From Hydrogenophaga sp. (GTDB lineage: Bacteria > Pseudomonadota > Gammaproteobacteria > Burkholderiales > Burkholderiaceae_C), in the NCBI GenBank assembly GCA_030696525.1, contig JAUYSB010000260.1, positions 1-32,635 on the forward strand: 32,635 bases of DNA. Reading direction: 5' to 3'. The notes below the pieces were generated by a model that was not told the DNA's origin, searched no databases, and worked only from the letters and a program-made list of their open reading frames with translations. Position 1 is the stretch's first letter; each line of letters starts with the position of its first letter. Below, piece after piece: positions 16,140 to 32,405 of this stretch. Position numbers and translations under genes: made by a program.

Positions 16140-17378
16140 TCAGCCGGGGTGGCGCGCCTGCGGCGTGGCGCTGTTCTGCAGCCACTCCAGCGCCGCCAAC
16201 ACCCCGCTGCCCAGCAGCTTGACGCCGGCCAGGCGCAGACCCATTTCGCAGCCGCCCAGCGCAGCCAGCAGGCTCAGGTCGTTGCATTCGCCCAGGTGGC
16301 CGATGCGGAACATGCGGCCCTTGAGTTTGCCCAGGCCCGTGCCCAGCGACAGGTTGAAGCGCTCGTAGATCAGCTGGCGCACCGCGTCGGCGTCCACCCC
16401 CTGGGGCAGCACCACACCGGTCAGCACCGGCGAATGCACAGCGGCGTCGGCGCACTGCACCTCCAGGCCCCAGGCGTGCACCGCCGCACGGCAAGCCGCC
16501 GCCAGCCGGTGGTGGCGGGCAAACACCGCCGGCAAGCCCTCGGCCTGCAGCATGTCCAGCGCCTCGCTCAGCGCGTACAGCAGGTTGGTGTTGGGTGTGT
16601 AGGGCCAGTAGCCGGTCTTGTTCATCTCGATGATCTCGTCCCAGGCCCAGAAGGCCTTGGGCAGGCGCGCTGAACGCGAGGCGGCGATGGCTTTCGGCGA
16701 CACCGCATTGAAGCTGATGCCGGGCGGCAGCATCAGGCCTTTTTGCGATCCGCTGACGGTCACGTCCACGCCCCACTCGTCGTGCCGGTAGTCGGCCGAG
16801 GCCAGGCCCGAGATGGTGTCCACCAGCAGCAGCGCGGGGTGGCCGGCGGCATCGATGGCGCGGCGCACGGCCGCGATGTCGGAGGTCACGCCGGTCGAGG
16901 TTTCGTTGTGCACCACACACACGGCCTTGATCTGGTGGCCGCTGTCCTCGCGCAGGCGTCGTTCGATCAGGTCGGCCTGCACGCCGCGGCGCCAGCTGTT
17001 GGGCAGACCGGTCTGCGGGCAGGTGCCCGGCAAGGCCACCACCTCGGGCACCAGGCCCAGGCGCTCGGCCATCTTGCGCCACAGGCTGGCGAAGTGGCCG
17101 GTTTCGTACATCAGCAGCGCGTCGCCCGGGCTCAGGGTGTTGGCCAGCGCCGCTTCCCAGGCGCCGGTGCCCGAGGCCGGGTAGACCACCACCGGGTGGC
17201 GGGTCTGGAAGACCTGCTGCAAACCCGCCAGCACCTGCCGACCCAGCGCACCAAACTCCGGCCCCCGGTGGTCGATGGTGGGGTAGCTCATGGCGCGCAG
17301 CAGGCGGTCGGGCACCGGGCTGGGGCCGGGGATGGCCAGGAAATGGCGGCCTGCGGGGTGGAAGTTGAGGTTGGGCAT
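16140..17378 (-). CDS. Class V aminotransferase, serine/alanine/ureidoglycine-glyoxylate type
   Basis: 412 residues from ATG 17378, which has an AAGGAG ribosome site; ATG 17399 overlaps the operator-like repeats and is rejected. FLAIPGPSPVPDRLLRAMSYPTIDHRGPEF is the AGT-family N-terminus, followed by VVYPASGTGAWEAAL, CVVHNETSTGVTSDI and LLVDTISGLASADYRHDEWGVDVTVSGSQKGLMLPPGI with the PLP lysine in SQKG. It probably uses glyoxylate as amino acceptor (EC 2.6.1.45/44). PucG-like (S)-ureidoglycine:glyoxylate aminotransferases belong to the same family, which is relevant beside ureide-hydrolase genes. It is divergent from a GntR regulator whose likely site overlaps its promoter. Confidence 0.9.
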   Translation of the reverse strand: MPNLNFHPAGRHFLAIPGPSPVPDRLLRAMSYPTIDHRGPEFGALGRQVLAGLQQVFQTRHPVVVYPASGTGAWEAALANTLSPGDALLMYETGHFASLWRKMAERLGLVPEVVALPGTCPQTGLPNSWRRGVQADLIERRLREDSGHQIKAVCVVHNETSTGVTSDIAAVRRAIDAAGHPALLLVDTISGLASADYRHDEWGVDVTVSGSQKGLMLPPGISFNAVSPKAIAASRSARLPKAFWAWDEIIEMNKTGYWPYTPNTNLLYALSEALDMLQAEGLPAVFARHHRLAAACRAAVHAWGLEVQCADAAVHSPVLTGVVLPQGVDADAVRQLIYERFNLSLGTGLGKLKGRMFRIGHLGECNDLSLLAALGGCEMGLRLAGVKLLGSGVLAALEWLQNSATPQARHPG

Positions 17379-17392
17379 GTCAGCTCCTTTGG

Positions 17393-17415
17393 TGTACAAA
17401 ATACAAAATACAATT
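17393..17415. promoter_or_regulatory. TACAAAA tandem repeats, candidate GntR operator
   Basis: TACAAAA at 17395-17401 and 17402-17408, then TACAATT at 17409-17415, form a 7-bp tandem array that begins with the palindrome TGTACA (17393-17398). It sits 15 bp upstream of the aminotransferase ATG and covers a possible -10 (TATTTT on minus, 17405-17410), with TTGGTT as a weak -35 at 17428-17433. GntR-FCD operators often contain TGTA/TACA half-sites (family knowledge). Linkage to the divergent GntR gene is inference. Confidence 0.5.
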
Positions 17416-17514
17416 TGAAGATATCACAACCAATGGCCAGCAGCAAGAGTGTCAGCATGGGTGCGGACTGGGTCCGATTTCTGGCGGTCGCCTCAACTGC
17501 ATACATAATTCGGC

Positions 17515-18192
17515 ATGTCCACCCCAACCGCCCCCCATTCGCCCGTTGTGGTGCGCGACACCTTGCACACCCAGGTGGTGGGGCTGCTGCGGCAACGGCT
17601 GATCGACGGCTCGCTGGCGCCGGGCAGCAAGCTCAACGAGCGGGTCTTGTGCGAGGAGATCGGGGTCTCGCGCACGCCGCTGCGCGAGGCCATCAAACAG
17701 CTGGCCACCGAAGGGCTGGTGACGCTGGAGGCCGGACGCGGCGCCTTTGCGGCAGCGCCCAGCCGCGACGACATCGAGCAGACCTTTGACGTCATCGCGG
17801 TGCTCGAAGGCCTGGCCGCCGAACGCGCGGCCCGGCACATCACCGACGCCGCCCTGGCCGAGCTGCAGGCGCTGCAGTACGACATGCAGGCCGCCTTCGA
17901 GCGGCGCGACCTGCAGGCCTACTACGCGGCCAACGCGCGGGCCCACGACCTGATGAGCGAAAGCGCCGGCAACGCGGTGTTGCGCCAGACCTGGCAACAG
18001 CTCAACCAGCGCCTGCACGCGCTGCGCTACCGCTCCAACCAGGACGAAACCAAGTGGCGGCACGCGCTGGCCGAACACGCCGACATGCTGCTGGCGCTGC
18101 GCCAGCGCGACGGCGCCGCCCTGCGCCGGCTGCTGGAGGAACACCTGCGGCGCAAACGCGACGCGGTGCTGGAGCAGCTCGACAAAGCCTGA
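17515..18192 (+). CDS. GntR-family regulator (FCD/FadR subfamily) 1
   Basis: 225 residues. The winged helix occupies about residues 12-75 (LHTQVVGLLRQRLIDGSLAPGSKLNERVLCEEIGVSRTPLREAIKQLATEGLVTLEAGRGAF). The rest is the all-helical FCD effector domain (FDVIAVLEGLAAERAARHIT, YYAANARAHDLMSESAGN, HADMLLALRQRDGAALRRLLEEHLRRKRDAV), whose spaced His/Asp residues usually hold a metal and a carboxylate effector. It is divergent from the class V aminotransferase with TACAAAA repeats in the 136-bp gap, and most likely controls it. It ends 3 bp from the stop of the racemase-like gene on the opposite strand. Confidence 0.92.
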   Translation: MSTPTAPHSPVVVRDTLHTQVVGLLRQRLIDGSLAPGSKLNERVLCEEIGVSRTPLREAIKQLATEGLVTLEAGRGAFAAAPSRDDIEQTFDVIAVLEGLAAERAARHITDAALAELQALQYDMQAAFERRDLQAYYAANARAHDLMSESAGNAVLRQTWQQLNQRLHALRYRSNQDETKWRHALAEHADMLLALRQRDGAALRRLLEEHLRRKRDAVLEQLDKA

Positions 18193-18195
18193 GGT

Positions 18196-18852
18196 TCAGG
18201 TGCTCAGCCGGGCCGACAGCAGCGCCACGCCACACGCCACACCGTCGAGCACCGGCACGCCCAGGCGCTGCTGCAAGGCCGGCGCATAACCGCACAACAC
18301 CGCACCGGCCAGCACCACGCTGCCGGCGCCGGCGGCGCACAGCGGCTGGGCAGCGCTGGCCAGGGTGTCCAACACCTCGGGCAACACGGCGCCGGGCTCG
18401 GCGGCAAAGGCGGCCGCACATTCGGGCGCGGCCACGCCCACCAGGGCATCCGCAAAGCCCAGACCACACACATGCTCACGGTAGCTGTTGGCCATGGCCG
18501 CGCCCAGTGTGAGCACGCCAAAACGCGGCCCGATCTGCAATGCGGCCAGGCAGGCGGCTTCGGTCATGCCCACCACCGGCTGGGGCGCACACGCCGCGCG
18601 GGTGGCGGCCAGGCCACAGTCGAGCGAAATGCCGATCAGCACCGCATCGTGATCGGCCTGATACGCCAGCGCCATGGCCAGCACGCGCTCGGCTGCGGCC
18701 TGCAGCTCCTCGGGCGACCGCACCGCCGCCGGCCCGTGGTCGGCGGTCAGCGCCGTGAGCTGCGCGCCGGGCGGCAACACGGCCCGCGCCGACAGCGCCA
18801 GGCGCTCGGTGATGTGGCGCGAGGTGTTGGGGTTGACCAGCAGCAAGCGCAT
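18196..18852 (-). CDS. Hydantoin/allantoin racemase-like protein (Asp/Glu racemase superfamily)
   Basis: 218 residues from ATG 18852. The start MRLLLVNPNTSRHIT with NPNTS is typical of HyuE/HpxA-type racemases. Both expected catalytic cysteines are present: C79 in IGISLDCGLAATR and C187 in LAGAVLCGYAP, so two-base racemisation is possible. The family racemises 5-substituted hydantoins or allantoin (family knowledge), which would let a stereospecific hydantoinase use both enantiomers. It is the last gene of a leftward operon, 10 bp after the second GntR gene, and is probably co-transcribed with it and with the AMDase-like gene. The exact substrate is unknown. Confidence 0.88.
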   Translation of the reverse strand: MRLLLVNPNTSRHITERLALSARAVLPPGAQLTALTADHGPAAVRSPEELQAAAERVLAMALAYQADHDAVLIGISLDCGLAATRAACAPQPVVGMTEAACLAALQIGPRFGVLTLGAAMANSYREHVCGLGFADALVGVAAPECAAAFAAEPGAVLPEVLDTLASAAQPLCAAGAGSVVLAGAVLCGYAPALQQRLGVPVLDGVACGVALLSARLST

Positions 18853-18862
18853 CGCCCAGGCC

Positions 18863-19570
18863 TCAGCTGCCGAACACGGCTTCGAGATCGACTTCGGCGG
18901 CCGAGCTGTCGAGCAGCAGGCTGCGCTCGATGTGGCCGAGGTGGGCCAGCATGAGCTTCTCGGCCTTGGCCACATCGCGCCGGGCAATGGCTTCGATGAT
19001 TTCCGAATGCTCGTCGGCGCGGCAGCTCATGGCGGTGGGCGCGTCGTAGAGCAGGATGATCAGGCAGGTCAGCGAAGACAGCTCGCGCAGGCTGCGCGAC
19101 AGCGCGCTGTTGCCGGCCAGTTCGGCCAGCAGCACATGGAACTCGCCCGAAAGGCGCACCACGGCGCGGCGGTCGTCGCGGCGGCGAGCGTCCAGCTCCA
19201 GCTCCTGGTGCTGGCGCAGGCGCGCCACCTTGTCGGGCGTGAGGTGGGCCACCAGGCGCTTGAGCACGGCCGGTTCGATCAGGCGGCGCGCCTCGAACAC
19301 GTCGATGGCCTGCTGTGGCGTGGGCTTGGCCACAAAGGCGCCGCGCTGCGGGTAGAGCTCGACGATCTGCTCGTGGGCCAGGCGGCTGAGCACCTCGCGC
19401 ACGCGGGCGCGGCTGACGTCGAAGATCTTGGCCAGCCGGTCCTCGCCCAGCTTGGTGCCGGGGTGCAGGCGGTGCTCCAGGATGGCGATGTAGATGCGCT
19501 CGTAGATCTCGTCGTTGGCGTTCTCGCGCGCCAGGCGGTCGGCGGATTCGGCAGGTGCGTTGCGTGGCAT
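18863..19570 (-). CDS. GntR-family regulator (FCD/FadR subfamily) 2
   Basis: About 235 residues from ATG 19570 (MPRNAPAESADRL); ATG 19630 (MKQQAAW) is possible but adds low-complexity sequence, and neither has a clear ribosome site. The winged helix is IYERIYIAILEHRLHPGTKLGEDRLAKIFDVSRARVREVLSRLAHEQIVELYPQRGAFV. The FCD domain follows (AIDVFEARRLIEPAVLKRLV, LSGEFHVLLAELAGNSAL, ADEHSEIIEAIARRDVAKAEKLMLAHLGHIERSLLL). Being sandwiched between the two racemase-fold genes and transcribed from the hydantoinase-facing promoter, it is the best candidate to bind the GTTGACAA repeats at 20472-20636. Confidence 0.9.
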   Translation of the reverse strand: MPRNAPAESADRLARENANDEIYERIYIAILEHRLHPGTKLGEDRLAKIFDVSRARVREVLSRLAHEQIVELYPQRGAFVAKPTPQQAIDVFEARRLIEPAVLKRLVAHLTPDKVARLRQHQELELDARRRDDRRAVVRLSGEFHVLLAELAGNSALSRSLRELSSLTCLIILLYDAPTAMSCRADEHSEIIEAIARRDVAKAEKLMLAHLGHIERSLLLDSSAAEVDLEAVFGS

Positions 19571-19682
19571 CGGGGACTTGGGTCGAGGCGAATGGGTTGC
19601 CGGCGGCAACCAGGCAGCCTGCTGCTTCATTCTATCGAGCGCCACATCGGCGGCGGCCTCGCCACAGCAAGCCCCTGCGGCT

Positions 19683-20408
19683 TCAGCGCCAGCCATACAG
19701 CTGCCCCCAGCCCGCCACCTGCGAGGGCGCCACGCCGGCCGCGCGCAACATGCCCCAGACGGTGGTGCTCACGGTGTCCAGCAGCGGGATGCCGGTGTCG
19801 GCCTCGATGGCCTCGGCCAGGCGCGCCGCATGCAGGTTGGTGCAGAAGGTGGTGATGGCCTGCGGCTGCGCCTGCGCCACCTCGCGCATCATGTGGTCCA
19901 GCTGCGCCTCGGGCACCAGCGCAAAGTCGTGGTTGACGCAAATGCCCAGATGGCGCTCGGCCACCACCTCCACGCCCAGCGCCGCGTAGTTCGCCACGAT
20001 GCGCTGCTGTACGTCGGCGGTGTAGGGCGTGACGAGGCCCAGGCGGCGTATGCCCTTGAGCGCCAGCAATTCGTTGAGCGCCAGCACCGCGGTGGTGGCT
20101 TTGATGCCGGTGTGCGCGTGGATGCGCTCGACCAGGCGCTGGTCGCGTTCAAAACCCATCCAGCCCGCCGCCGTGCCGCTCCAGCCGATCACGTCGACCT
20201 TCGCATCGGCCAGCAGCTCGGCCGCAGCCAGGATCTTGCTGTCGTCGAACTGGCCCAACGCGTCGGGCGAGAGCGAGATTTCGGTGACCTTGAAACGCGC
20301 GAAATGCGCGCTGACACCGGGCAGCCCGGCCACGATGGCGCTGGTCAACGGCTCCAGCGCGGTGTTGGACGAAGGGGTGAGCACACCCAGGCGAACAGGG
20401 GACGACAT
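19683..20408 (-). CDS. Arylmalonate decarboxylase/maleate isomerase-like protein
   Basis: 241 residues. LGVLTPSSNTALEPL is the N-terminal signature of this Asp/Glu-racemase subgroup. The second catalytic cysteine is present as C189 in ITTFCTNLHAARLAEAIE. Where maleate isomerase and Asp/Glu racemases carry the first cysteine, the sequence reads GWSGTAAGW (S77), with no cysteine nearby. That one-cysteine arrangement is known from arylmalonate decarboxylase (family knowledge), so a decarboxylase or one-sided protonation chemistry is possible. It is the first gene of the leftward operon, starting 270 bp from the divergent hydantoinase. Other readings are a specialised racemase or a maleate-isomerase variant. 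Confidence 0.85.
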   Translation of the reverse strand: MSSPVRLGVLTPSSNTALEPLTSAIVAGLPGVSAHFARFKVTEISLSPDALGQFDDSKILAAAELLADAKVDVIGWSGTAAGWMGFERDQRLVERIHAHTGIKATTAVLALNELLALKGIRRLGLVTPYTADVQQRIVANYAALGVEVVAERHLGICVNHDFALVPEAQLDHMMREVAQAQPQAITTFCTNLHAARLAEAIEADTGIPLLDTVSTTVWGMLRAAGVAPSQVAGWGQLYGWR

Positions 20409-20449
20409 GGTTTCCTTTCTCGGGGCACGGCCAGCGCCAACCCGCTTCT

Positions 20450-20578: not shown

Positions 20579-20614
20579 AAGCAAAGCCATACAGGCAGCC
20601 AACATGCACCCATT

Positions 20615-20677: not shown

Positions 20678-22090
20678 ATGAACGCCGCTTTTGATCTGGT
20701 TGTCCGCCACGCCCGCATCGCCACCGCCAGCGAATGCTATGCGGCCGATATCGGTGTGCGCGGCGGGCAGATCGTCCAGATTGGTGCGCAACTCGGGGCC
20801 GGCATGCGCGAAATTGATGCGCAGGGCCGCGTGGTCACGCCCGGCGGCGTGGACGCCCACTGCCACCTCGATCAGCCCATGGCGCCGCCGGTGCGCATGG
20901 CCGACGACTTCGACACCGGCACCCGTTCGGCCGCGTGTGGCGGCACCACCACCGTGATCCCATTTGCCGCGCAGGCCAAGGGGCAGTCGCTGCGCGCCGC
21001 CGTGGCCGACTACCACCACCGCGCCGACGGCAAGGCGCATGTGGACTACGCCTTTCACCTGATCGTGAGCGACCCCACGCCCGAGGTGTTGCAGCACGAG
21101 CTGCCGCAGCTGATTGCCGAGGGCTACACCTCGTTCAAGATCTACATGACCTACGATGACCTCAAGCTCGACGACGGTCAGATACTGGACGTGCTGTCGG
21201 TGGCGCGCGAACACGGCGCCATGGCCATGGTGCACGCCGAAAACGCCGACTGCATCGAGTGGTTGACCAAACGCCTGGAGGCCGCTGGCCGCACCGCACC
21301 GCGTTTCCACGCCCACGCCCGCCCCATGCTGGTGGAGCGCGAGGCCACGCACCGCGCGATCGCGCTGTCGGAGCTGGTTGACGTGCCCATCCTGATCGTG
21401 CACGTGTCGGGCCGCGAGGCGGTGGAACAGATCCGCTGGGGCCGCGCGCATGGCCTGCAAATCTTTGCCGAGACCTGCCCGCAGTACCTGTTCCTCACCG
21501 CCGAAGACTTGGGGCTGGACGACAGCTACCAGGGTGCGCGCTGCATCTGCAGCCCGCCGCCGCGCGACGCCTCCAACCAGGACGTGATCTGGAACGGCCT
21601 GCGCGACGGGCTGTTCACCGTGTTTTCATCCGACCACGCGCCCTTCAACTTCGACGGCACCGAAGGCAAAAAGCCGGGCGGCCAGGAACAGCCCTTCCGC
21701 CACATCCCCAACGGCATTCCGGGTCTGGAAACACGCATGCCGCTGCTGTATTCCGAAGGGGTTCTGGGCGGGCGCATCACGCTGGAGAAGTTTGTTGAAC
21801 TCACCGCCACCAACCCCGCCAAGGCCTACGGCCTGCACCCGCGCAAGGGCTCGATTTCGGTCGGCGCCGACGCCGACCTGGTGATCTGGGAGGAAGGCGA
21901 GCGCGTCATCCGCAACGCCGACCTGCACCACGCGGTGGACCACACGCCCTACGAGGGCCGCCGCCTGCGCGCCTGGCCGGCCATCACGCTGAGCCGCGGC
22001 GAGGTGGTGTGGGACGGCCAGTTCCACCCCCGGCGCGGCCAGGGCCAGTTCTTGCATTGCCAACCGCCCAGCCTGTGGCCGCGCCGCTGA
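20678..22090 (+). CDS. Dihydropyrimidinase/D-hydantoinase-family cyclic amide hydrolase
   Basis: 470 residues from ATG 20678; the in-frame extension covers the promoter region. The amidohydrolase metal site is complete: H61 and H63 in GGVDAHCHLDQP, K154 (carboxylated lysine) in TSFKIYMTYDD, H186 in MVHAEN, H242 in IVHVSG, and D319 in SSDHAPFNF. CICSPPPRDASNQDVIWNGL is a typical substrate-loop region. These enzymes open six- or five-membered cyclic ureides (dihydrouracil, dihydrothymine, hydantoins) to N-carbamoyl amino acids (EC 3.5.2.2). It is the first gene of a rightward operon behind a sigma-54 promoter and is followed after 70 bp by TRAP genes. Allantoinase activity is a less likely alternative. 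Confidence 0.92.
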   Translation: MNAAFDLVVRHARIATASECYAADIGVRGGQIVQIGAQLGAGMREIDAQGRVVTPGGVDAHCHLDQPMAPPVRMADDFDTGTRSAACGGTTTVIPFAAQAKGQSLRAAVADYHHRADGKAHVDYAFHLIVSDPTPEVLQHELPQLIAEGYTSFKIYMTYDDLKLDDGQILDVLSVAREHGAMAMVHAENADCIEWLTKRLEAAGRTAPRFHAHARPMLVEREATHRAIALSELVDVPILIVHVSGREAVEQIRWGRAHGLQIFAETCPQYLFLTAEDLGLDDSYQGARCICSPPPRDASNQDVIWNGLRDGLFTVFSSDHAPFNFDGTEGKKPGGQEQPFRHIPNGIPGLETRMPLLYSEGVLGGRITLEKFVELTATNPAKAYGLHPRKGSISVGADADLVIWEEGERVIRNADLHHAVDHTPYEGRRLRAWPAITLSRGEVVWDGQFHPRRGQGQFLHCQPPSLWPRR

Positions 22091-22160
22091 GGCCGCCACC
22101 TGCCTGTCCATTTCCCAACCCGCGTTCCCCTCACCCAACCGCAACCCAAGGAGTAACACC

Positions 22161-23222
22161 ATGAACCTGACCCGATCACTCTCGCGCTGCCTGCTGCCGC
22201 TGGCCGCTGCCGCCGCCCTGCTCACCGGCGGCCACGCCAGCGCACAGGACCGCATCACCTTCAAGGTGATCGGCCAGCCCGCCGCCACCGGCATGGTGCA
22301 GAAGAACAAGGAAAAGCCCTTCTTCGACGAGTTCGCCAAGCGCACCGGCCTGGCCATCGACGCCGACTACAAGGCCATCGACCAGCTCGGCATCAAGGAC
22401 ACCGAGCAGCTGCGCGTGATGAAGGCCGGCCTGTTCGACATCGTGTCGCTGCGCGTGTCGCAGAACTCGCGCGACGAACCCACGCTGCTGGGCCTCGATC
22501 TGGTGGGCGCCGCGCCCAACTACGAGACCGCGCGCAAGGTCTACGAGGCCTACTTCGACACGCTCGACCAGCGCCTGCAAAAGCAGTTCCAGGTCAAGCT
22601 GCTGGGCGCCTGGCCCTTCGGCCCACAAATCCTGTTCTGCAAGAAGCCGGTGTCCAAGCTGGCCGACCTCAAGGGCCTGAAGGTGCGCGTGTACGACCAG
22701 AATCTGGCCAAGTTCATCGAGACCGTGGGCGGCGTGCCGGTGCCGCTGTCCTTCACCGAAGTGCACCAGTCGCTGTCGCTGGGTGTGGTGGACTGCGCCA
22801 TCACCGGCCCGAGTTCGGCCAACAGCTCGGGCTGGCCTGAGGTGACGACCCACCAGTACCCGATCGGCTTCCAGATGGCGGTCAACGGTTACGCCATCAC
22901 CCTCAAGGCCTGGAACCGCCTGAACGCCGACCAGCAGACCAAGATGCAGGCCGCCTTCAAGGCCCTGACCGACGACATCTGGGTGTATTCGGAGCAGCTG
23001 ACCAAGGACGCCATGAACTGCAACGCCGGCAAGGAACCCTGCACCACCGGCAAGAAGTTCAACCTGGTGGACGTGCCGGTGCAGCCGGCCGACCTGGCCA
23101 CCCTGCGCGACGCCGTGGCGTCCATCTCGGTGCCCACCTGGGCCGAAATCTGCGACAAGTCCAACCCCGGCTGCTCCGCCGCATGGAAGGCCACCGTGGG
23201 CAAGGTTGTCGGCATCAAGTAA
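22161..23222 (+). CDS. dctP: TRAP transporter solute-binding protein
   Basis: 353 residues with a signal peptide (MNLTRSLSRCLLPLAAAAALLTGGHASA, cleavage after A28) and an AAGGAG ribosome site at 22147-22152. DctP-family hallmarks: FKVIGQPAATGMVQKNKEKPFFDEF, LGLDLVG, ADLKGLKVRVYDQNLAKFIETVGGVPVPLSFTEVHQSLSLGVVDCAITGPSS. R176 in KVRVY is the conserved arginine that usually binds the ligand carboxylate, so the imported compound probably carries a carboxyl group. Placed between the hydantoinase and the DctQ/M genes, it defines the substrate of the cluster. A strong hairpin follows its stop. Confidence 0.93.
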   Translation: MNLTRSLSRCLLPLAAAAALLTGGHASAQDRITFKVIGQPAATGMVQKNKEKPFFDEFAKRTGLAIDADYKAIDQLGIKDTEQLRVMKAGLFDIVSLRVSQNSRDEPTLLGLDLVGAAPNYETARKVYEAYFDTLDQRLQKQFQVKLLGAWPFGPQILFCKKPVSKLADLKGLKVRVYDQNLAKFIETVGGVPVPLSFTEVHQSLSLGVVDCAITGPSSANSSGWPEVTTHQYPIGFQMAVNGYAITLKAWNRLNADQQTKMQAAFKALTDDIWVYSEQLTKDAMNCNAGKEPCTTGKKFNLVDVPVQPADLATLRDAVASISVPTWAEICDKSNPGCSAAWKATVGKVVGIK

Positions 23223-23230
23223 GGCATGAC

Positions 23231-23256
23231 GGGTGGGCGTGCCGGCACGCCCACCC
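23231..23256. repeat. 26-bp perfect palindrome (stem-loop) between dctP and dctQ
   Basis: Arms GGGTGGGCGTGC (23231-23242) and its exact reverse complement (23245-23256) flank only CG, 8 bp after the dctP stop and 21 bp before dctQ. No T-run follows, and an AACGGAGG ribosome site comes next. Such intercistronic hairpins often protect the upstream message or cause partial termination, giving more binding protein than membrane subunits (known in ABC/TRAP operons; applied here by inference). Confidence 0.75.
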
Positions 23257-23277
23257 GCGCACAACGGAGGAACCCTC

Positions 23278-23898
23278 ATGAAAGACACCCTCGAACGCTG
23301 GCTGGGCACGCTGTTCGGCCTGATTTTTGTGGCCCTGTCGCTGGTGGTGGCGGTGGAGACCGCGCTGCGCAAGCTGTTCAACATCTCGCTGCAGGGCGCC
23401 GACGAACTGGGCGGCTACGCCCTGGCCGTGGGTGCCACCATCGCCTTCAGCCTGGCGCTGCTGGGGCGCAACCACATCCGGGTGGATGTTTTTCATGAGC
23501 GTTTGCCCAAGGCAGTGCAGGTGCTGCTGAACTGGCTGTCGGCGCTGTCGATGGCTGGCTTTGCCGCCTTGCTGGCCTACCTGGCCTGGTTCGTGATCCA
23601 GGACTCGCGCAGCTACCAGAGCGTGTCGCAAACCCCATGGGCCACGCCGCTGGTCTACCCCCAGACCGCGTGGCTGCTGGGTCTGGGCACTTTCGGTCTG
23701 CTGGCGGTGGGCATTGCGGCCTACGCCACCTACCTGCTGGTGACGGGGCGCACGGATGCACTCAACCGCATGCTGCACCCGCGCTCGACCCGCGAAGAAC
23801 TCAAGGAAGAACTGGACGACCTGCAGCACAGGTCCAACGCAGCCGATGTCAGCGGCACACCAGCCGCTCCCTCTACCCAAACCGCAGGTGCAGCATGA
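23278..23898 (+). CDS. dctQ: TRAP transporter small membrane subunit
   Basis: 206 residues from ATG 23278, preceded by GGAGG at 23266-23270. Four membrane helices are visible: LFGLIFVALSLVVAVETAL, GGYALAVGATIAFSLALLG, LLNWLSALSMAGFAALLAYLAWFVI and WLLGLGTFGLLAVGIAAYATYLL. ADELGGYALAVGATIAFSLALLGRNHIRVDVFHERLP is the DctQ signature. The C-terminal 40 residues are charged and extend into the cytoplasm (STREELKEELDDLQHRSNAADVSG). It overlaps dctM by ATGA. Its role is to couple with DctM for sodium-driven import of the ligand bound by DctP. Confidence 0.92.
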   Translation: MKDTLERWLGTLFGLIFVALSLVVAVETALRKLFNISLQGADELGGYALAVGATIAFSLALLGRNHIRVDVFHERLPKAVQVLLNWLSALSMAGFAALLAYLAWFVIQDSRSYQSVSQTPWATPLVYPQTAWLLGLGTFGLLAVGIAAYATYLLVTGRTDALNRMLHPRSTREELKEELDDLQHRSNAADVSGTPAAPSTQTAGAA

Positions 23899-25187: not shown

Positions 25188-26605
25188 GCGGCGGCGCCCC
25201 CAACACCCCGCTGTGGATGTGGTCGGCCACGGCGCTGGCTGCGGGCTACCGCAACGGGCAGGTCACGCCACTGGACGCGGTGCGCGCCTGCCTGGGGCGC
25301 ATCGACACCGTCAACCCGCAGATCAACGCCTTCGTGGCGCAGCGCGAGGCGGTGCTGGACGATGCGCGGGCCAGCACCGAACGCTTTCGCCTTGGCCAGC
25401 CCCTGTCCGCCCTCGACGGCATCCCGCTGTCCATCAAAGACAACCTGGCCACCGCCGACCTGCCCACCACTTGGGGCAGCCCGGCACTGCGCGCGCACCC
25501 GCCCACTGCGCGCGACGAGCTGCCGGTGGCACGCGCACGCGCGGCCGGTGCGCTGGTCGTGGGCAAAACCAACGTGCCCGAATTCACGCTCGAGGGCTAC
25601 ACCGCCAACCCGGTGTTCGGCGTCACCCGCAACCCATGGAACCTGGCGCTCACGCCCGGCGGCTCCAGCGGCGGCGCGGTGGCCAGCGTGGCGGCAGGCT
25701 GCACGCCACTGGCCCTGGGCACCGACGGCGGCGGCTCCATCCGCCGCCCGGCCTCGCACTGTGGCCTGGTCGGGTTCAAGCCCTCCATCGGCGCCATTGC
25801 GCGCGGCGACGGCCTGCCGCCGCTGCTGCTCGACTTCGAGGTGGTGGGCCCCATGGCCCGCGCCGTGGCCGATGTGCGGCTGCTGTTTCAGGCCCTGCGC
25901 GGCGCGCAAGCGGCCGACCGCGCCTCGCTGGCGGCGGCCCATGCCACCTTGCACGCGCCCGCCGGCACGCCGCTGCGGGTGCTCTATGTGCCCACACTTG
26001 ACCAGGCGCCGGTGGAGCCGGAGATTGCCGCTTCCTGCGCCGATGCGGTTGAGCACCTGCGTGCGCTGGGCCACGAGGTGCACACCGGCACCCTGCCGCT
26101 GGACATCACCGAGCTGACCCGCCAATGGCCTGCGGTCGGGCAGATCGGCCTGGCCGCGATGTTCGCCGACCACCCCGCGTGGCGCGAACTGGCCTCCAGC
26201 AAATACCAGCAGATGGCCGAGCAGGGCCACGCCCTGGGTGCCCCGGCACTTTGGAAACTGCTGGACACGGTGGAGCGCTTGCGCCGCGACTGCGCGGCGC
26301 TGTTCGAACAGATCGACCTCATCGCCATGCCCAGCGCTGCCGCCCTGCCCTGGCCAGCGGCCGAGGCCTTTCCGCCCACGATTGCCGGCCAGCCCGTGGG
26401 GCCACGCGGCCACGCCGTGTTCACCGGCTGGGTCAATGCGGCGGGCCTGCCTGCGGTGTCGCTGCCCACGGCCCCGGCCAGCAGCGGCCTGCCCATCGGC
26501 CTGCAGCTCATCGGGCCATTCGGTGCCGACGACCGCGTGCTGGCCGTGGCCGAGGCGATGGAAACGCTGGCGCCCTGGGCGCACCGCCGCCCCCCACTGC
26601 CATGA
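25184..26605 (+). CDS. Amidase-signature family hydrolase
   Basis: 473 residues from GTG 25184, which overlaps the dctM stop (GTGA); the 949-residue frame covering it is an artefact of reading dctQ/M out of frame. The Ser-cisSer-Lys triad is complete: K85 in LSIKDN, S161 in GGSSGG, S185 in GTDGGGSIRRPAS, with the 24-residue S-S spacing of the family. The C-terminus ends in VSLPTAPASSGLPIGLQLIGPFGADDRVLAVAEAME. These enzymes hydrolyse amides, half-amides or carbamoyl groups. In this operon it is the best candidate to cleave the ring-opened hydantoinase product, replacing a canonical beta-ureidopropionase (inference). It is coupled by ATGA to the next gene. Confidence 0.93.
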   Translation: MSGGAPNTPLWMWSATALAAGYRNGQVTPLDAVRACLGRIDTVNPQINAFVAQREAVLDDARASTERFRLGQPLSALDGIPLSIKDNLATADLPTTWGSPALRAHPPTARDELPVARARAAGALVVGKTNVPEFTLEGYTANPVFGVTRNPWNLALTPGGSSGGAVASVAAGCTPLALGTDGGGSIRRPASHCGLVGFKPSIGAIARGDGLPPLLLDFEVVGPMARAVADVRLLFQALRGAQAADRASLAAAHATLHAPAGTPLRVLYVPTLDQAPVEPEIAASCADAVEHLRALGHEVHTGTLPLDITELTRQWPAVGQIGLAAMFADHPAWRELASSKYQQMAEQGHALGAPALWKLLDTVERLRRDCAALFEQIDLIAMPSAAALPWPAAEAFPPTIAGQPVGPRGHAVFTGWVNAAGLPAVSLPTAPASSGLPIGLQLIGPFGADDRVLAVAEAMETLAPWAHRRPPLP

Positions 26606-27531
26606 CACCCGCCACCGCCGACCCGACCAACGCGCGCCGGTTTGCGCCACGCCGCCCTGACAGCATCGACGCCGGCTGGCGCTGGCCGCAGGGCCGGGGC
26701 CTGGCCCTGTCCTTTGTGCTCAACATCGAAGAAGGCGCCGAGTTGGCGCTGAGCAGCGGCGACGATCACAACGAAGGCGTGCACGAGGTGGTCAACGAGA
26801 TCCGCGGCGCGCGCGACTTCTGCATGGAAACCCATTTCGAATACGGCGCACGTTGCGGCTACGACCGCGTGCTGCAGCGTTTTGCCGACCGCCACTGGCC
26901 GCTGACCCTCAACGTCTGCGGCCGCGCGCTGGAACACACGCCGTGGGTGGCCACAGACGCCATCGCCCACGGCCACGAGTTGTGTGGCCACGGCTGGCGC
27001 TGGGAGTCGCCCGCGCTGATGGACGAGGCCACCGAGCGCGCCCAGATCGCGCGCACCGTGGCCAGCATCACCCGCCTGTGGGGCCGCGCGCCGGCCGGCT
27101 GGCACTGCAAAAGTTCGCGCTCGGTCAACACCCGCCGGCTGCTGCAGGACATGGGTTTTCTGTACGACAGCGACGACTACGGCGACGACCTGCCCACCAC
27201 CCTGCCGCGTGCCGATGGCGGGCAACACGTGGTGCTGCCCTACGCCTTCGACACCAACGACATGCGCTTTTACGACCGCGCCAGCTTTGTGCACGGCCGC
27301 GACTTTGCCGACTACGTGATCGCCGCCATCGACACCCTGCTGAACGAAAGCCGGCACGCGCCACGCATGCTGACCGTGGGCCTGCACACCCGCATCATCG
27401 GGCGCCCGGCGCGCATCGGCGGGCTCGACATGGTGCTGCGCCATGTGGCACAACACGCCGACGACATCTGGGTGGCGCGGCGCGAAGACATCGCGCGACA
27501 CTGGCTGGCGCGAACGCCCGCCCAGCGCTGA
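26602..27531 (+). CDS. PuuE-like polysaccharide-deacetylase-fold hydrolase
   Basis: 309 residues from ATG 26602, in the amidase stop (ATGA). ALSFVLNIEEGAE (34-47) replaces the usual FDDG, and GHELCGHGWRWE (124-135) has HGWRW (130-134) where zinc deacetylases have HxxxH. METHFEYGARCGYDRVL, CKSSRSVNTRRLL, LYDSDDYGDDLP and LPYAFDTNDMRFY are typical of the PuuE (metal-free allantoinase) subgroup. The fold is known for opening cyclic ureides, and some bacterial cyclic imide hydrolases are reported in the same superfamily (recalled, less certain). It is last in the hydantoinase-TRAP-amidase operon and converges on the LysR gene. It is probably a second ring-opening or amide-cleaving hydrolase. Confidence 0.88.
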   Translation: MTPATADPTNARRFAPRRPDSIDAGWRWPQGRGLALSFVLNIEEGAELALSSGDDHNEGVHEVVNEIRGARDFCMETHFEYGARCGYDRVLQRFADRHWPLTLNVCGRALEHTPWVATDAIAHGHELCGHGWRWESPALMDEATERAQIARTVASITRLWGRAPAGWHCKSSRSVNTRRLLQDMGFLYDSDDYGDDLPTTLPRADGGQHVVLPYAFDTNDMRFYDRASFVHGRDFADYVIAAIDTLLNESRHAPRMLTVGLHTRIIGRPARIGGLDMVLRHVAQHADDIWVARREDIARHWLARTPAQR

Positions 27532-27567: not shown

Positions 27568-28491
27568 TCAGCGGTGGGCGGCCAGCAGCGCCTCGCGGAA
27601 GGTCTCGGCCACCCGGGACGGCGCCGGTGCACGCCGGTGCATGCAAGCGAAGGCACACCGGTAGAACAGGGTGCGCGGCGCCACCGCGCGCATGCGGCCC
27701 GCGGCCACAAAAGCCTGGGCATAGTGGTCGGGCAAAAAACCCACGTAGGCGCCTGAGAGCACCAGCGTGGCCACGGCCTCCTGGTCGCTGGCGGTGGCGG
27801 CGCGTTCCAGCCGCCGCTCGTGGGTGAGCGCCATGTTGGGCGAGTGGTAACCCAGCGCAGCCAGGTCCTGGTGGCGCAGATCGGCCCAGCCGTGGCGGGC
27901 GCCTGTGTCGGCAAACCAGGCGTGGCCCTGGCCGGCGTACAGGCACATGGTCTCGTTGAACAGCGGGTCGTAGGCCAGGCTGTCGGAGCGCCGGTGCTCG
28001 GGGATGATGCCCAGGTGGTACTGGCCGTCGATGACGCCGCGCTCGATCATGGCGATGCTGCCCACGTGCATGTGCAGCGTGACCTGCGGCGCGCGCTGCC
28101 GGAAGGCCGCCACCGCCTGCGCGATGTGCGCCTGCGGGTTGCTCACGGTTTTTTCGAACACCGCCACGTGCAGGTCGCCGCCCAGGCGGCGGTGGACGTC
28201 GTGCAGGCTGCTGCGAAAGGCGTCGGTGGCGGCCAGCAGCTGTTCGGTGGCGGCGTAGAGCTGCTCGCCCTCGGGCGTGAGCGCAAACCCGGCGCGCCCG
28301 CGCCGGCACAACACCAGGCCCAGCCGGGTTTCCAGGTCTTTCACATGGCGGCTGATGGTGGACATGGCCAGGTTCAGCTCCAGCTCGGCCGAGGCCATGC
28401 CGCCGCAGTCCACCACCGCCTTGAACACCCGCAGCAGGCGCAGGTCGGCGTCGCTGAGTTGCCCGATCGGTGCGACGTTCTTTACTTGCAT
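27568..28491 (-). CDS. LysR-family transcriptional regulator
   Basis: 307 residues. The N-terminal helix-turn-helix is LSDADLRLLRVFKAVVDCGGMASAELELNLAMSTISRHVKDLETRLGLVLCRRGRAGFALTPEGEQLY (about 12-80). It is followed by the linker helix and a periplasmic-binding-like effector domain (LHVAVFEKTVSNPQAHIAQAVAAF, YHLGIIPEHRRSDSLAYDPLFNETMCLYAG, GAYVGFLPDHYAQAFV). It is divergent by 86 bp from the transaminase-dehydrogenase operon and is most likely its activator, responding to a beta-amino acid or the derived semialdehyde (inference). It converges with the PuuE-like gene, with a 36-bp gap. Confidence 0.92.
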   Translation of the reverse strand: MQVKNVAPIGQLSDADLRLLRVFKAVVDCGGMASAELELNLAMSTISRHVKDLETRLGLVLCRRGRAGFALTPEGEQLYAATEQLLAATDAFRSSLHDVHRRLGGDLHVAVFEKTVSNPQAHIAQAVAAFRQRAPQVTLHMHVGSIAMIERGVIDGQYHLGIIPEHRRSDSLAYDPLFNETMCLYAGQGHAWFADTGARHGWADLRHQDLAALGYHSPNMALTHERRLERAATASDQEAVATLVLSGAYVGFLPDHYAQAFVAAGRMRAVAPRTLFYRCAFACMHRRAPAPSRVAETFREALLAAHR

Positions 28492-28498
28492 GAATCTT

Positions 28499-28519
28499 CA
28501 ACCAAGCTGAGATAAGTTG
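28499..28519. promoter_or_regulatory. Candidate LysR-type site CAAC-N13-GTTG
   Basis: CAAC (28499-28502) and GTTG (28516-28519) form an interrupted inverted repeat in the 86-bp divergent region, 8 bp from the LysR start. Size and position suit a LysR recognition-binding site, but the arms are short. An AAGGAG ribosome site for the transaminase is at 28566-28571; I found no convincing -35/-10 pair. Confidence 0.3.
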
Positions 28520-28577
28520 TCATTTTCAAGACTAACACGCCTGCCCAGAATCGCCCCATCTCTTCAAGGAGCCTTTC

Positions 28578-29942
28578 ATGGACATGACCGACAGCCAACG
28601 CCTGAACCCACCCGCAACCACTGGCATGCGGACCGACGCCGCATGGCTGGCCGCCCACTGGATGCCCTACACCGGCAACCGCCAGTTCAAGGCCGACCCG
28701 CGCCTCATCGTGGCGGCCCAGGGCGCCCACTTCACCAGCCACGACGGCCGGCAGATCTTTGACGGCCTGTCGGGGCTGTGGTGTTCGGGCCTGGGCCATG
28801 GCCGCACCGAAATCACCGAGGCCGTGAGCCGCCAGGTGGCCACGCTGGACTATTGCCCGGCCTTCCAGTTCGGGCACCCGCTGTCCTTCGAGCTGGCCAA
28901 CAAAATCGTCGAACGCATGCCGGCCGGCCTCAACCGCGTGTTCTTCACCGGCTCGGGTTCGGAGTCGGCCGACACCTCGCTCAAGATGGCGCGCGCCTAC
29001 TGGCGCGCCAAGGGGCAGGCCAGCAAGACGCGCCTGATCGGCCGCCTCAAGGGCTACCACGGCGTGAACTTTGGCGGCATTTCGGTGGGCGGCATCGTGG
29101 CCAACCGCAAGCTGTTCGGCCAGGGCGTGGAGGCCGACCACCTGCCCCACACCCAGCCCGCCAACGGCAGTTTCCACAAGGGCATGCCCCCTACCGGGGC
29201 CGAGCTGGCCGACCACCTGCTGGACCTCATCGCGCTGCACGATGCCTCCAACATCGCGGCCGTCATCGTCGAGCCCTTCTCGGGCTCGGCTGGCGTGGTG
29301 ATCCCGCCCGTGGGCTACCTGCAGCGCCTGCGCGAGATCTGCACCGCGAACCACATCCTGCTGATTTTTGATGAGGTCATCAGCGGCTTCGGGCGCTCGG
29401 GCGCCTGGACCGGCGCCGAGGCCTTTGGCGTCACGCCCGACATCCTGAACTTCGCCAAACAGGTCACCAACGGCGCGCAGCCGCTGGGCGGCGTGGTGGT
29501 GCAGCAAGGCATCTACGACACCTTCATGGCGCAGGGCGGCCCCGATTACATGCTGGAGTTCCCACACGGCTACACCTACTCGGCCCACCCGGTGGCCTGT
29601 GCGGCCGGCGTGGCCGCCATGGACCTGCTGGCCAGCGACAACGCGGTGCAGCGCGTGCGCGAACTGGCGCCGCATTTCGAGAATGCGGTGCACGGCCTGC
29701 GCGGCGCGAAACACGTGGCCGACATCCGCAACTTCGGCCTGGCCGCCGGCATCACCATCAGCCCGCTGCCGGGCGAACCCGCCAAGCGCCCTTACGAAAT
29801 TGCCATGGCCATGTACGCCAAAGGTTTCTACGTGCGCTACGGCGGCGACACCATCCAGCTCGCGCCGCCCTTCATCAGCACGCCGGCCGAGATCGACCGC
29901 CTGGTCGATGCACTGGGCGACACCCTGAACCAAACCGCATGA
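28578..29942 (+). CDS. bauA: Beta-alanine (omega-amino acid):pyruvate transaminase
   Basis: 454 residues, class III PLP aminotransferase. HWMPYTGNRQFKADPRLIVAAQGAHFTSHDGRQIFDGLSGLWCSGLGHGR, TLDYCPAFQFGHPLSFELANKI, FTGSGSESADTSLKMARAYWR, GRLKGYHGVNFGG, LIFDEVISGFGR and NFAKQVTNGAQPLGG (PLP lysine K294) closely follow the known beta-alanine:pyruvate transaminase of Pseudomonas as I recall it. FPHGYTYSAHPVACAAG and FYVRYGGDTIQLAPPF are also shared. It converts beta-alanine or 3-aminoisobutyrate plus pyruvate to malonate (or methylmalonate) semialdehyde and alanine (EC 2.6.1.18). It overlaps the dehydrogenase gene by ATGA. Confidence 0.92.
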   Translation: MDMTDSQRLNPPATTGMRTDAAWLAAHWMPYTGNRQFKADPRLIVAAQGAHFTSHDGRQIFDGLSGLWCSGLGHGRTEITEAVSRQVATLDYCPAFQFGHPLSFELANKIVERMPAGLNRVFFTGSGSESADTSLKMARAYWRAKGQASKTRLIGRLKGYHGVNFGGISVGGIVANRKLFGQGVEADHLPHTQPANGSFHKGMPPTGAELADHLLDLIALHDASNIAAVIVEPFSGSAGVVIPPVGYLQRLREICTANHILLIFDEVISGFGRSGAWTGAEAFGVTPDILNFAKQVTNGAQPLGGVVVQQGIYDTFMAQGGPDYMLEFPHGYTYSAHPVACAAGVAAMDLLASDNAVQRVRELAPHFENAVHGLRGAKHVADIRNFGLAAGITISPLPGEPAKRPYEIAMAMYAKGFYVRYGGDTIQLAPPFISTPAEIDRLVDALGDTLNQTA

Positions 29943-31444
29943 GCATGAGCACATCCATTCCCCACCTGATCAACGGCCGCCGCACCGACGGCGGCCAACG
30001 CAGCCAGCCCGTCTACAACCCCGCCACCGGCGCCGTGAGTGGCCAGGTGCAACTGGCCGATGCGCTCACCGTCGATGCGGCGATCGCCTCAGCCCAGGCC
30101 GCCTTCCCAGCCTGGCGCAACACGCCGCCGCTCAAACGCGCACGCGTGATGAGCCAGTTCAAGGTGCTTCTGGAGCAGCACGCCGACACCATCTGCCAGC
30201 TCATCACCGCCGAACACGGCAAGGTGCTGGCCGACAGCCTGGGCGAGCTGCAGCGCGGCATCGAAAACGTCGAGTACGCCAGCTACGTGACCGAGCTGCT
30301 CAAGGGCGAACACAGCCGCAACGTCGGCCCCGGCATCGACTCGTGGAGCGAGCACCAGGCCCTGGGCGTGGCGGCGGGCATCACACCCTTCAACTTCCCG
30401 GCCATGGTGCCGCTGTGGATGTGGCCCATGGCCGTGGCCTGTGGCAACACCTTCGTGCTCAAGCCCAGCGAGCGCGACCCCAGCAGCGCCCTCTACATCG
30501 CCGAACTCGCGCTGCAGGCCGGCCTGCCGCCGGGCGTGCTCAACGTGGTGCAGGGCGACAAAGAAGCGGTGGACGTGCTGCTGACCGACCCGCGCGTGAA
30601 GGCCGTGAGTTTTGTCGGCAGCACACCGATTGCCGAATACATCTACGCCGAAGGCTGCAAGAACGGCAAACGTGTGCAGGCCCTGGGCGGCGCCAAGAAC
30701 CACGCGGTGGTGATGCCCGACGCCGACATCGGCAACGCGGTGAGCGCGCTGATGGGCGCGGCCTATGGCTCGTGTGGCGAACGCTGCATGGCCATCCCGC
30801 TGGTGGTGGCGGTGGGCGACGCCACGGCCGACGCGGTGATCGCCGGCCTGAAGGCCGAGATCGCCCGGATGAAGGTGGGCCCCGGCACTGAGGCCAGCTG
30901 CGACATGGGTCCGCTGGTCACACAGGCGCACTTCGAGAAGGTGCGCGGCTATGTGGACCAGGGCGTGACTGAGGGCGCCACGCTGGTGGTGGACGGCCGC
31001 ACCCTGAAGGTGCCTGGCCATGAGGGCGGCTACTTTCTGGGCCCCTGCCTGTTCGACCACGTCCAAGCCGGCATGCGCATCTACCAGGAAGAGATTTTTG
31101 GCCCGGTGCTGGGCGTGGTGCGGGTGCAGACGCTGCAACAAGCCATGGACCTGATCGACGCCCACGAATACGGCAACGGCACCTGCATCTTCACCCGCGA
31201 CGGCGAGGCCGCGCGCTTCTTCACCGACCACATCCAGGTCGGCATGGTGGGCGTCAACGTGCCCCTGCCGGTGCCGGTGGCCTACCACTCCTTCGGCGGC
31301 TGGAAACGCAGCCTGTTTGGCGACCTGCACGCCTACGGCCCCGACGCGGTGCGCTTCTACACCAAGCGCAAGACCATCACCCAGCGCTGGCCCTCGGCCG
31401 GCGTGCGCGAGGGCGCGGTGTTCAGTTTCCCGTCGAGCCGCTGA
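29939..31444 (+). CDS. mmsA: CoA-acylating (methyl)malonate-semialdehyde dehydrogenase
   Basis: 501 residues from ATG 29939, overlapping the transaminase stop; ATG 29945 (MSTSIPHLINGRR) is equally usable. ALDH-superfamily features: VAAGITPFNFPAMVPLWMWPMAVACGNTFVLKPSERDPSS, VSFVGSTPIAEYIY, QALGGAKNHAVVMPDAD and the nucleophile C283 in SCGERCMAIPLVVAVGD, the MmsA-specific context. VGVNVPLPVPVAYHSFGGWKRSLFGDLHAYG and FYTKRKTITQRWP also match MmsA. It converts malonate semialdehyde to acetyl-CoA, or methylmalonate semialdehyde to propionyl-CoA, with CO2 release (EC 1.2.1.27/18). With the transaminase it forms a BauA-BauC-like beta-alanine pair. Confidence 0.94.
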   Translation: MSMSTSIPHLINGRRTDGGQRSQPVYNPATGAVSGQVQLADALTVDAAIASAQAAFPAWRNTPPLKRARVMSQFKVLLEQHADTICQLITAEHGKVLADSLGELQRGIENVEYASYVTELLKGEHSRNVGPGIDSWSEHQALGVAAGITPFNFPAMVPLWMWPMAVACGNTFVLKPSERDPSSALYIAELALQAGLPPGVLNVVQGDKEAVDVLLTDPRVKAVSFVGSTPIAEYIYAEGCKNGKRVQALGGAKNHAVVMPDADIGNAVSALMGAAYGSCGERCMAIPLVVAVGDATADAVIAGLKAEIARMKVGPGTEASCDMGPLVTQAHFEKVRGYVDQGVTEGATLVVDGRTLKVPGHEGGYFLGPCLFDHVQAGMRIYQEEIFGPVLGVVRVQTLQQAMDLIDAHEYGNGTCIFTRDGEAARFFTDHIQVGMVGVNVPLPVPVAYHSFGGWKRSLFGDLHAYGPDAVRFYTKRKTITQRWPSAGVREGAVFSFPSSR

Positions 31445-31529
31445 GGCAGGCGCAGCTTGCCACCGCCGCCGGATGGGGTGACAGCGGCTGGCCAGGGCAG
31501 ACAAGGCCAAAGTGTTGAACAATGACCGC

Positions 31530-32405
31530 ATGAACACCACCAACCCCTACACCCCACCCAAAGTCTGGACACCGCCCGCCGCCAGCGGCGGCCAGTTCGC
31601 CAACATCAACCGCCCCACGGCCGGCGCCACCTTCGACAAGCCGCTGCCTGTGGGCAAACACCCGCTGCAGCTCTACTCCATGGGCACGCCCAACGGCGTG
31701 AAGGTGACGGTGATGCTGGAGGAGCTGCTGGCCGCCGGCCACAGCGGCGCGGAGTACGACGCCTGGCTGATCAACATCCGAGAGGGACAGCAGTTTGGCA
31801 GCGGCTTTGTGGCCGCCAACCCCAACTCCAAGATCCCGGCATTGATGGACCACAGTGGCGCCACGCCGCAGCGGGTGTTCGAATCCGGCGCCATCCTGAT
31901 GTACCTGGCCGAGAAGTTCGGCGCCTTCATCCCGTCTGACGGCCCGGCCCGCGCGGCCTGCCTGTCGTGGCTGTTCTGGCAGATGGGCAGCGCGCCGTTT
32001 CTGGGCGGCGGCTTCGGCCACTTCTACGCCTACGCGCCCACCAAGATCGAATACGCCATCGACCGCTACGCCATGGAAGTCAAGCGCCAGATGGACGTGC
32101 TCGACCGCCACCTGGCCGACCACCGCTACCTGGCCGGCGACGGCTACACCATCGCCGACATGGCGACCTGGCCCTGGTACGGCCTGCTGGCCAAGGGCCT
32201 GCTGTATGAAGCGGGCGAGTTTTTGCAGGTGCACGAATACACCCACGTGCTGCGCTGGGCCGAAGACATTGCGCAGCGCCCAGCCGCGCAGCGCGGGCGC
32301 ATGGTCAACCGCGTGATCGGGCCATTGAACACCCAATTGCACGAGCGCCACGACGCCAGCGACTTCGACACCCGCACCCAGGACAAATTGTTGCCCGCAC
32401 CATGA
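31530..32405 (+). CDS. yghU: YghU-like glutathione S-transferase (disulfide-bond oxidoreductase)
   Basis: 291 residues from ATG 31530 (MNTTNPYTPPKVW); GTG 31512 would add six. The long N-terminal arm with YTPPKVW and FANINRPTAGATFDKPLPVGKHPLQLYSMGTPNGVKVTVMLEELL is characteristic of YghU/YfcG-type Nu-class GSTs. IPALMD and VFESGAILMYLAEKFG form the glutathione site (ES pair), and WLFWQMGSAPFLGGGFGHFYAYAP opens the C-terminal helical domain. Such proteins bind two glutathiones and reduce disulfides or peroxides (family knowledge). It lies 85 bp after mmsA, with possible co-transcription; the gap shows no clear terminator. It overlaps the next GST gene by ATGA. Confidence 0.92.
   Translation: MNTTNPYTPPKVWTPPAASGGQFANINRPTAGATFDKPLPVGKHPLQLYSMGTPNGVKVTVMLEELLAAGHSGAEYDAWLINIREGQQFGSGFVAANPNSKIPALMDHSGATPQRVFESGAILMYLAEKFGAFIPSDGPARAACLSWLFWQMGSAPFLGGGFGHFYAYAPTKIEYAIDRYAMEVKRQMDVLDRHLADHRYLAGDGYTIADMATWPWYGLLAKGLLYEAGEFLQVHEYTHVLRWAEDIAQRPAAQRGRMVNRVIGPLNTQLHERHDASDFDTRTQDKLLPAP

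Follow-up and report, generated by a model that had tools for sequence, protein, structure and literature searches.

The closest described analogue that we found for the locus presented here is a purine gene set of Escherichia coli, hyuA/ygeW/ssnA/yqeA; the excerpted text of PMC4016543 assigns to this yge/ssnA cluster a hydantoinase (hyuA/ygeZ), a carbamoyltransferase (ygeW), a carbamate-kinase-like protein (yqeA) and the aminohydrolase SsnA. The AllFGH proteins of the same organism act on oxalurate, according to the excerpt of PMC11326118. Our locus lies in a stretch of 32,635 nucleotides from Hydrogenophaga sp. (assembly GCA_030696525.1, contig JAUYSB010000260.1, forward strand), hereafter the window, in which positions 16140 to 32405 hold the genes of a hydantoinase, a TRAP importer, an amidase and two racemase-fold proteins. 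We confirmed that this is a real, conserved import-and-breakdown island, and sequence likeness suggests that it is a variant of ureide catabolism. There is, in our estimate, an even chance that its genes serve the catabolism of a five-membered cyclic ureide that bears a carboxyl group, is of the hydantoin type and stems from purines. No description of the cluster was found by title or by the start of the abstract in the openly licensed PMC literature, and it may be described elsewhere.

With the yge/ssnA cluster the island shares the hydantoinase, and aminohydrolases of the broad SsnA type, like the deaminases of related plasmid loci, stand near the arylmalonate decarboxylase (AMDase)-like gene amdase at 5 of the 23 loci collected with that gene, and at none of the 80 DctP loci or of 60 random loci. 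On the other hand, the excerpt of PMC4016543 mentions no TRAP importer, AMDase-like protein, amidase, class V aminotransferase (AT5) or FAH-family gene in the E. coli cluster, while homologues of ygeW, ygeY and xdh were not sought around the island. A solute-binding importer, a GntR-superfamily regulator and an EutA-like protein are features common to the ectoine eut clusters as excerpted from PMC5924519; unlike those clusters, the island gave no EutD- or EutE-type match among the matches listed for the scanned window proteins. AMDase-fold genes beside TRAP genes are also reported in the excerpt of PMC4996985, but the main text of that paper does not mention a dihydropyrimidinase, and our amdase fails several of the AMDase criteria given there.

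The genes hydA, dctP, dctQ, dctM, amidase and puuE form one plus-strand unit (20678-27531), and a race-gntR-amdase unit runs the opposite way from the hydA promoter region. HydA (20678..22090, plus strand) belongs to the D-hydantoinase/dihydropyrimidinase family, PRK13404 subfamily, and passes the cut-offs of PRK13404 (782.7 over 647) and TIGR02033 (523.9 over 393.25). It is followed on the same strand by the genes of the TRAP solute receptor DctP (22161..23222), of the small permease DctQ (23278..23898) and the large permease DctM (23895..25187), both identified by family scan, and of an amidase-signature hydrolase (25184..26605; PF01425, 322.6 bits). HydA, the amidase and AT5 all show the residues to be expected for catalysis. 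Four-base overlaps of start and stop, read from the translations, at dctQ/dctM, dctM/amidase, amidase/puuE and aptA/mmsA argue for an operon organisation.

A profile search of 84,980 species genomes with DctP returned 180 relatives, of which the best 80 loci were kept for counts; these lie partly on short contigs, 51 of the 80 being at least 19 kb. By record title they are mostly Burkholderiales, the others being Zobellella, Oceanisphaera, Oceanimonas, Pseudomonas, Vreelandella, Pararhizobium and one metagenome-assembled genome (MAG) labelled Acidobacteria, and the nearest relative is from Hydrogenophaga (97%). Among these loci hydA is present in 57, amdase in 58, gntR in 48, dctQ in 78, dctM in 77 and amidase in 61. 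In 56 of the 61 loci having both, dctM is immediately followed by the amidase gene, amdase lies at most 1 kb from hydA in 43 of 51, and hydA, amdase, dctQ, dctM and amidase are all together in 42 loci, from Burkholderiales as well as Gammaproteobacteria. Since the order recurs in many genomes, the arrangement is more than chance. A lack of conserved gene order elsewhere had been set beforehand as the test that could refute an earlier sequence-only reading of this stretch, which thus came through on this point; likewise, every gene family it had named was recovered in family scans of the window proteins. Its gene list lacks a hydratase-like gene of the FAH family, a regular member found in 55 of the 80 loci, and has to be amended in two places: its last open reading frame (ORF), at 31530-32405, encodes a glutathione-dependent disulfide-bond oxidoreductase (NF008731, 511 over 325) that apparently lies outside the pathway; and the PuuE-like gene is only 26602-27531, the long ORF from 26125 overrunning the amidase in another frame. 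In Zobellella maritima (L121) and Oceanisphaera (L127) a single run comprises a second TRAP set, amdase, an FCD regulator, hydA, race, AT5, dctPQM, amidase, FAH, an SBF-like transporter and the LysR/aptA/mmsA genes.

Shared with the E. coli allantoin regulon (PMC11326118, excerpt) is fdrA/allF, found over the NCBIfam cut-off directly behind dctM in L101, L105 and L113, and a partial fdrA with a carbamate kinase occupies this place in L104, so that oxamate-carbamoyltransferase (OXTCase) genes follow dctM in 4 of the 80 loci. L101 carries in addition a carbamate kinase and, each over its Pfam cut-off, AllG (PF06545, 281 bits), AllH (PF11392, 92.8) and the ureidoglycolate lyase AllA (PF04115, 118.8). 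Of 399 genomes of the order just 25 have fdrA, so the expected number of such neighbours among the 80 loci is 0.02. In contrast to that regulon, the island combines an amidase with a TRAP importer and has no allantoate amidohydrolase next to it. A locus of V. paradoxus VAI-C combines gntR, a hydA 79% identical to that of the window, an ABC importer, a ureidoglycolate lyase and PuuE. At L043, L065, L108, L177 and L187 the cluster contains or adjoins genes for uraD and/or HIUase (PF09349 and PF00576 where tested); L108 and L187 have a further HIUase-family gene, with a Tat-type signal recognised by eye, and L177 has a relative of that gene. Profile tests confirmed the names YlbE/YlbF, AllA, UraD and HIUase given to neighbours, with the exception of L187:13694-14620, which is related to PuuE by an identity of about 31% to other members and by a Pfam match below cut-off. 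Among 22 genomes drawn evenly and chosen only by having amdase, 5, from 3 lineages, have an HIUase or HIUase-like gene no more than 12 kb from amdase, where 0.13 would be expected (P 3e-7, or 3e-4 by lineage); the island's own genome (G000) was left out and tandem HIUases were merged. For the per-locus counts and one of the neighbour searches, matches shorter than half of the query were disregarded. It is because of the AllA/PuuE, UraD and HIUase neighbours, together with the allantoin-racemase fold described below, that we favour a purine-derived cyclic ureide; with the OXTCase genes, they also make the allantoin-like breakdown, which the earlier reading had listed as an alternative, the best supported of its proposals.

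Separately, a recurring mini-cluster of an HIUase gene, a second HIUase-family gene, uraD and an MFS gene of weak similarity (22-25%) was noticed in L108:16956-18508, L265, L266 and L267. In L108 and L265 a Tat-type signal can be recognised by eye in the second HIUase-family protein, and the pairing of two HIUases hints that one step of urate conversion may be periplasmic.

Both racemase-fold proteins of the island lack catalytic cysteines of the two-Cys mechanism. The race gene (18196..18852, minus strand; PF01177, 115 bits) encodes an allantoin/hydantoin-racemase fold, and in an alignment of members of 180-330 residues both catalytic cysteines are absent from 43 of 45 rows, that of the window included; only two race genes, at 20.3 kb in L061 and at 3.9 kb in L118, keep both. 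The canonical motifs IACFGDPGL and LGCAGM are changed to VAAFGDPGL and LAGAPLAGL or similar. The structures closest to the model (pLDDT 96.9; TM 0.90 to 5lg5 and 3qvk) are allantoin racemases, one from P. fluorescens and one from K. pneumoniae (TM about 0.90, 27% identity), and apart from the fungal epimerase OpaE all solved relatives recovered by profile search were racemases of allantoin or hydantoin. Judged by alignment and model, race would keep the allantoin-racemase fold and be unable to racemise by the two-Cys mechanism. The P. fluorescens allantoin racemase entry likewise has no Cys at the first site in the alignment, given which the loss of the first-site Cys alone may not be decisive. 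In four genomes of the same order (G012, G242, G060 and G272, loci L032, L034, L035 and L036), an amidase (31-32%), a member of the PuuE-like clade and race (37-38%) form a trio close to a second, canonical-type puuE.

The product of amdase (19683..20408, minus strand; PF17645, 73 bits) is a single-Cys protein resembling AMDase, EutA and maleate isomerase. Cysteine C189 is kept, and glycine (G78) occupies the first Cys site of maleate isomerase and the racemases, in 42 of 42 aligned sequences, which are the window protein and 41 of 43 family members, two having been excluded because their lengths were not between 0.8 and 1.4 times that of the window protein. Arylmalonate decarboxylases are recognised in the excerpt of PMC4996985 by 12 search criteria, among them Cys188 and a Gly74 replacing the second Cys. 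Our protein agrees with this Gly74/Cys188 criterion and departs from others, with the sites placed by eye: around P14P15 the sequence reads TPSSN, the G189 site is Thr in all 42, and the S76 site is Ala in the window and Ser in 30 of 42. Its NCBIfam score is 63 of 225. Because several further criteria fail, we do not file it as an arylmalonate decarboxylase. Maleate isomerase has two catalytic cysteines, and alignment to 2xec places Gly at the first of these sites, although databases label some relatives of amdase 'maleate isomerase'. Racemisation, which had been part of the sequence-only reading, is accordingly not supported for the island, race lacking both catalytic cysteines and amdase one.

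From the gene content, order, conservation, missing cysteines and neighbours we infer the following substrate and order of reactions. The TRAP importer would take in a ureide acid. TRAP receptors are limited to carboxylates by a conserved Arg (PMC4646407, excerpt), and in DctP, whose C-terminus is Cys-rich, the invariant Arg176 is kept in 30 of 30 aligned members. Comparison with solved receptors singled out no ligand; among structural matches of 16-23% identity 4n4u, whose title names no ligand, was the best, 2pfy (DctP7, pyroglutamate) ranked 2 and 2pfz (DctP6, pyroglutamate) ranked 8, these two at 19-23% identity, and a cyclic amide acid is a plausible ligand. The AMDase-like enzyme would then remove the carboxyl next to the ring carbon, with reprotonation through its single Cys, and HydA, of clear family, would cleave the ring of the hydantoin and so yield an N-carbamoyl (ureido) acid resembling ureidoglycolate or ureidoglycine. 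In some lineages the PuuE-like enzyme may act as a second ring opener. The amidase would cleave off the carbamoyl group and leave a two-carbon acid, which AT5 could connect to the pool of amino acids through glyoxylate/glycine. Of the imported carboxylated cyclic ureide or imide proposed earlier, the conserved island stands and a ureide is probably the substrate, while cyclic imides are no longer the favoured class.

Several observations weigh against a purine-derived cyclic ureide. The FAH-family gene, regular as it is, has no clear role in the scheme, and lactate receptors rank 5-7 among the structural matches of DctP, where others score alike. Two of the four OXTCase loci are from Ramlibacter and three of the contigs stop soon after, so the loss of the amidase there is not established; L101 also retains amidases, and its AllA passes Pfam and stays under the NCBIfam cut-offs (107.8 of 160). 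The 12 kb limit of the HIUase count was chosen after seeing the data, and three of the five genomes belong to one genus, their HIUase-like genes staying below the TIGR02962 cut-off (70-73 of 87.45 bits). Counted per locus, the ureide genes uraD, hiuH, allA, fdrA and ylbE were not significantly enriched, with 9 positives among 103 test loci against 2 among 60 random ones (Fisher p=0.16), adjacency of purine genes being significant only in counts based on whole-genome gene numbers and not in simple locus counts. Finally, the genome of the island has a canonical M20-uraD-puuE allantoin cluster elsewhere (L039, G000:C99:759-3392), and the island is therefore not its basic allantoin route.

The alternative that survives best, unlikely as we hold it to be, is catabolism of dihydroorotate or hydantoin-5-acetate, where HydA would give N-carbamoyl-aspartate, the amidase aspartate and AT5 oxaloacetate, to be decarboxylated by the FAH-family enzyme. 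AT5 (16140..17378, minus strand; PF00266, 60 bits in the family scan) is nearest to BhcA, an aspartate-glyoxylate aminotransferase, and to the serine-glyoxylate aminotransferase 6pk1 (352 bits), and the pyroglutamate bound by two solved DctP relatives is a lactam acid. Moreover, L107, L109 and L118 hold fcd2-AT5-dctPQM-amidase-FAH and no hydA in the stretch examined; L042 and L120 have the same set plus amdase, again with no hydA. However, BhcA (NF045640), although the best NCBIfam match of AT5, scores below its cut-off (434.6 against 650), and this route leaves the HIUase, UraD, AllA and OXTCase neighbours and the AMDase-like protein unexplained. AT5 itself is present at 60% identity or more in 36 of the 80 loci, and its pairing with the divergent GntR/FCD regulator gene fcd2 (17515..18192, plus strand, family scan) is seen again, for example, in L107, L109, L118 and L120. 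On the strand opposite fcd2, an ORF at 17452-18144 (minus) had no family match and was rejected as a gene.

Distinctly unlikely is the reductive pyrimidine branch, in which HydA would open dihydrouracil or dihydrothymine, the amidase release beta-alanine or beta-aminoisobutyrate, and AptA and MmsA lead these to acetyl- or propionyl-CoA. HydA does exceed the dihydropyrimidinase cut-off, and in the window the cluster adjoins the omega-aminotransferase gene aptA (28578..29942, plus strand; NF052567, 699 bits over 500) and mmsA (29939..31444, plus strand), for a CoA-acylating methylmalonate-semialdehyde dehydrogenase (TIGR01722, 649.7 bits over 448.5), with a divergent lysR (27568..28491, minus strand) that probably regulates this unit. 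But the pair, together with lysR, recurs in only 3 of the 80 loci (L121, L125 and L127), all gammaproteobacterial, namely Zobellella maritima, Oceanisphaera and an unclassified MAG, and the control loci L209, L217 and L249 hold just 25-34% paralogues; AptA/MmsA was rejected as a regular member, and the LysR/aptA/mmsA genes may be a mere neighbour of the pathway. PreA-type dihydropyrimidine dehydrogenase exceeds its cut-off in only 3 of 13 cluster genomes and was not found over cut-off in the island's own draft genome (3.97 Mb, 80.2% complete), so PreA was rejected as a genomic partner and the pyrimidine route is disfavoured; dihydrouracil, besides, has no carboxylate for the receptor Arg to bind. 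M20 N-carbamoylase occurs in 7 of 10 genomes, the copy of the island genome adjoining uraD and the canonical puuE. With aptA/mmsA in 3 of the 80 loci, the regular exit to acetyl- or propionyl-CoA put forward earlier is not supported.

More doubtful still is that independent catabolic operons lie side by side and serve no single pathway. Modules do occur apart, in the loci named above that have AT5 and no hydA (L107, L109, L118), in L044 and L052, where hydA-amdase and a GntR regulator are paired with other importers, and on a Caballeronia plasmid (L197), whose AT5 and FAH genes stand without amidase and dctPQM and hence mark AT5-FAH as a smaller unit. The overlapping reading frames of the window and the 42 loci with the five genes together, in two bacterial groups, speak against it. 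L052 is a plasmid of human-source Klebsiella michiganensis with a related set of race-gntR, an ABC importer and amdase-hydA-FAH; 568 Klebsiella plasmid records match HydA, and over all organisms 997 of 1029 matching records are below 60% identity. The least probable alternative, a cyclic-imide (maleimide/succinimide) route with a PuuE-like imidase, the amidase as half-amidase and the AMDase-like protein as maleate isomerase, matches these three families and the database name of some AMDase-like relatives, but it meets Gly instead of one of the two cysteines in all 42 sequences, a PuuE-like gene in only 11 of the 80 loci, and ureide-gene neighbours that it leaves unexplained.

For the purine-derived ureide, too, the PuuE-like gene (26602..27531, plus strand) is an accessory and not a regular member, the 11 loci being counted at 55% identity or more; the two extra hydrolases of the earlier reading were a fair description with this restriction. 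Its product, scored on the overlong ORF, falls short of the PuuE allantoinase cut-off (TIGR03212, 254.7 of 424.6), and in a 60-sequence tree it belongs to a 27-member clade (support 0.975) apart from canonical PuuE, with the motif WH[CST][KR] against WYTGR. The sequences thus indicate a separate subfamily, perhaps with a different ring substrate.

Three local regulators had been predicted, and these are two of the GntR/FCD type, fcd2 and gntR (18863..19570, minus strand, family scan), and the LysR. On the left the island is bordered by a glycerol-3-phosphate dehydrogenase-like gene and a glycerol kinase (window 12911-16136), the latter ending three bases from the end of the convergent AT5. A fumarylacetoacetase at window 7680-8993 (PF09298, PF01557) is distinct from the cluster-type FAH gene of relatives, whose best match in the island's own genome lies on another contig (60% identity).

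In its most detailed form, which we regard as rather unlikely, the purine-derived ureide pathway would be an aerobic route for carboxylated, alloxanate-like hydantoins from purine oxidation: TRAP uptake, cofactor-free decarboxylation to 5-hydroxyhydantoin by the single-Cys EutA/AMDase relative, conversion to ureidoglycolate by HydA and decarbamoylation by the amidase, exchanged in some lineages for the oxamate-carbamoyltransferase complex, with the Cys-less allantoin-racemase fold being reused. If true, this would give a job to the widespread PRK13404 hydantoinase subfamily now annotated as dihydropyrimidinase, to proteins labelled maleate isomerase or racemase though they lack the cysteines needed for those reactions, and to a TRAP receptor family for which we found no ligand. 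It would also suggest that the amidase and the phosphorolytic carbamoyltransferase are alternative solutions to one step.

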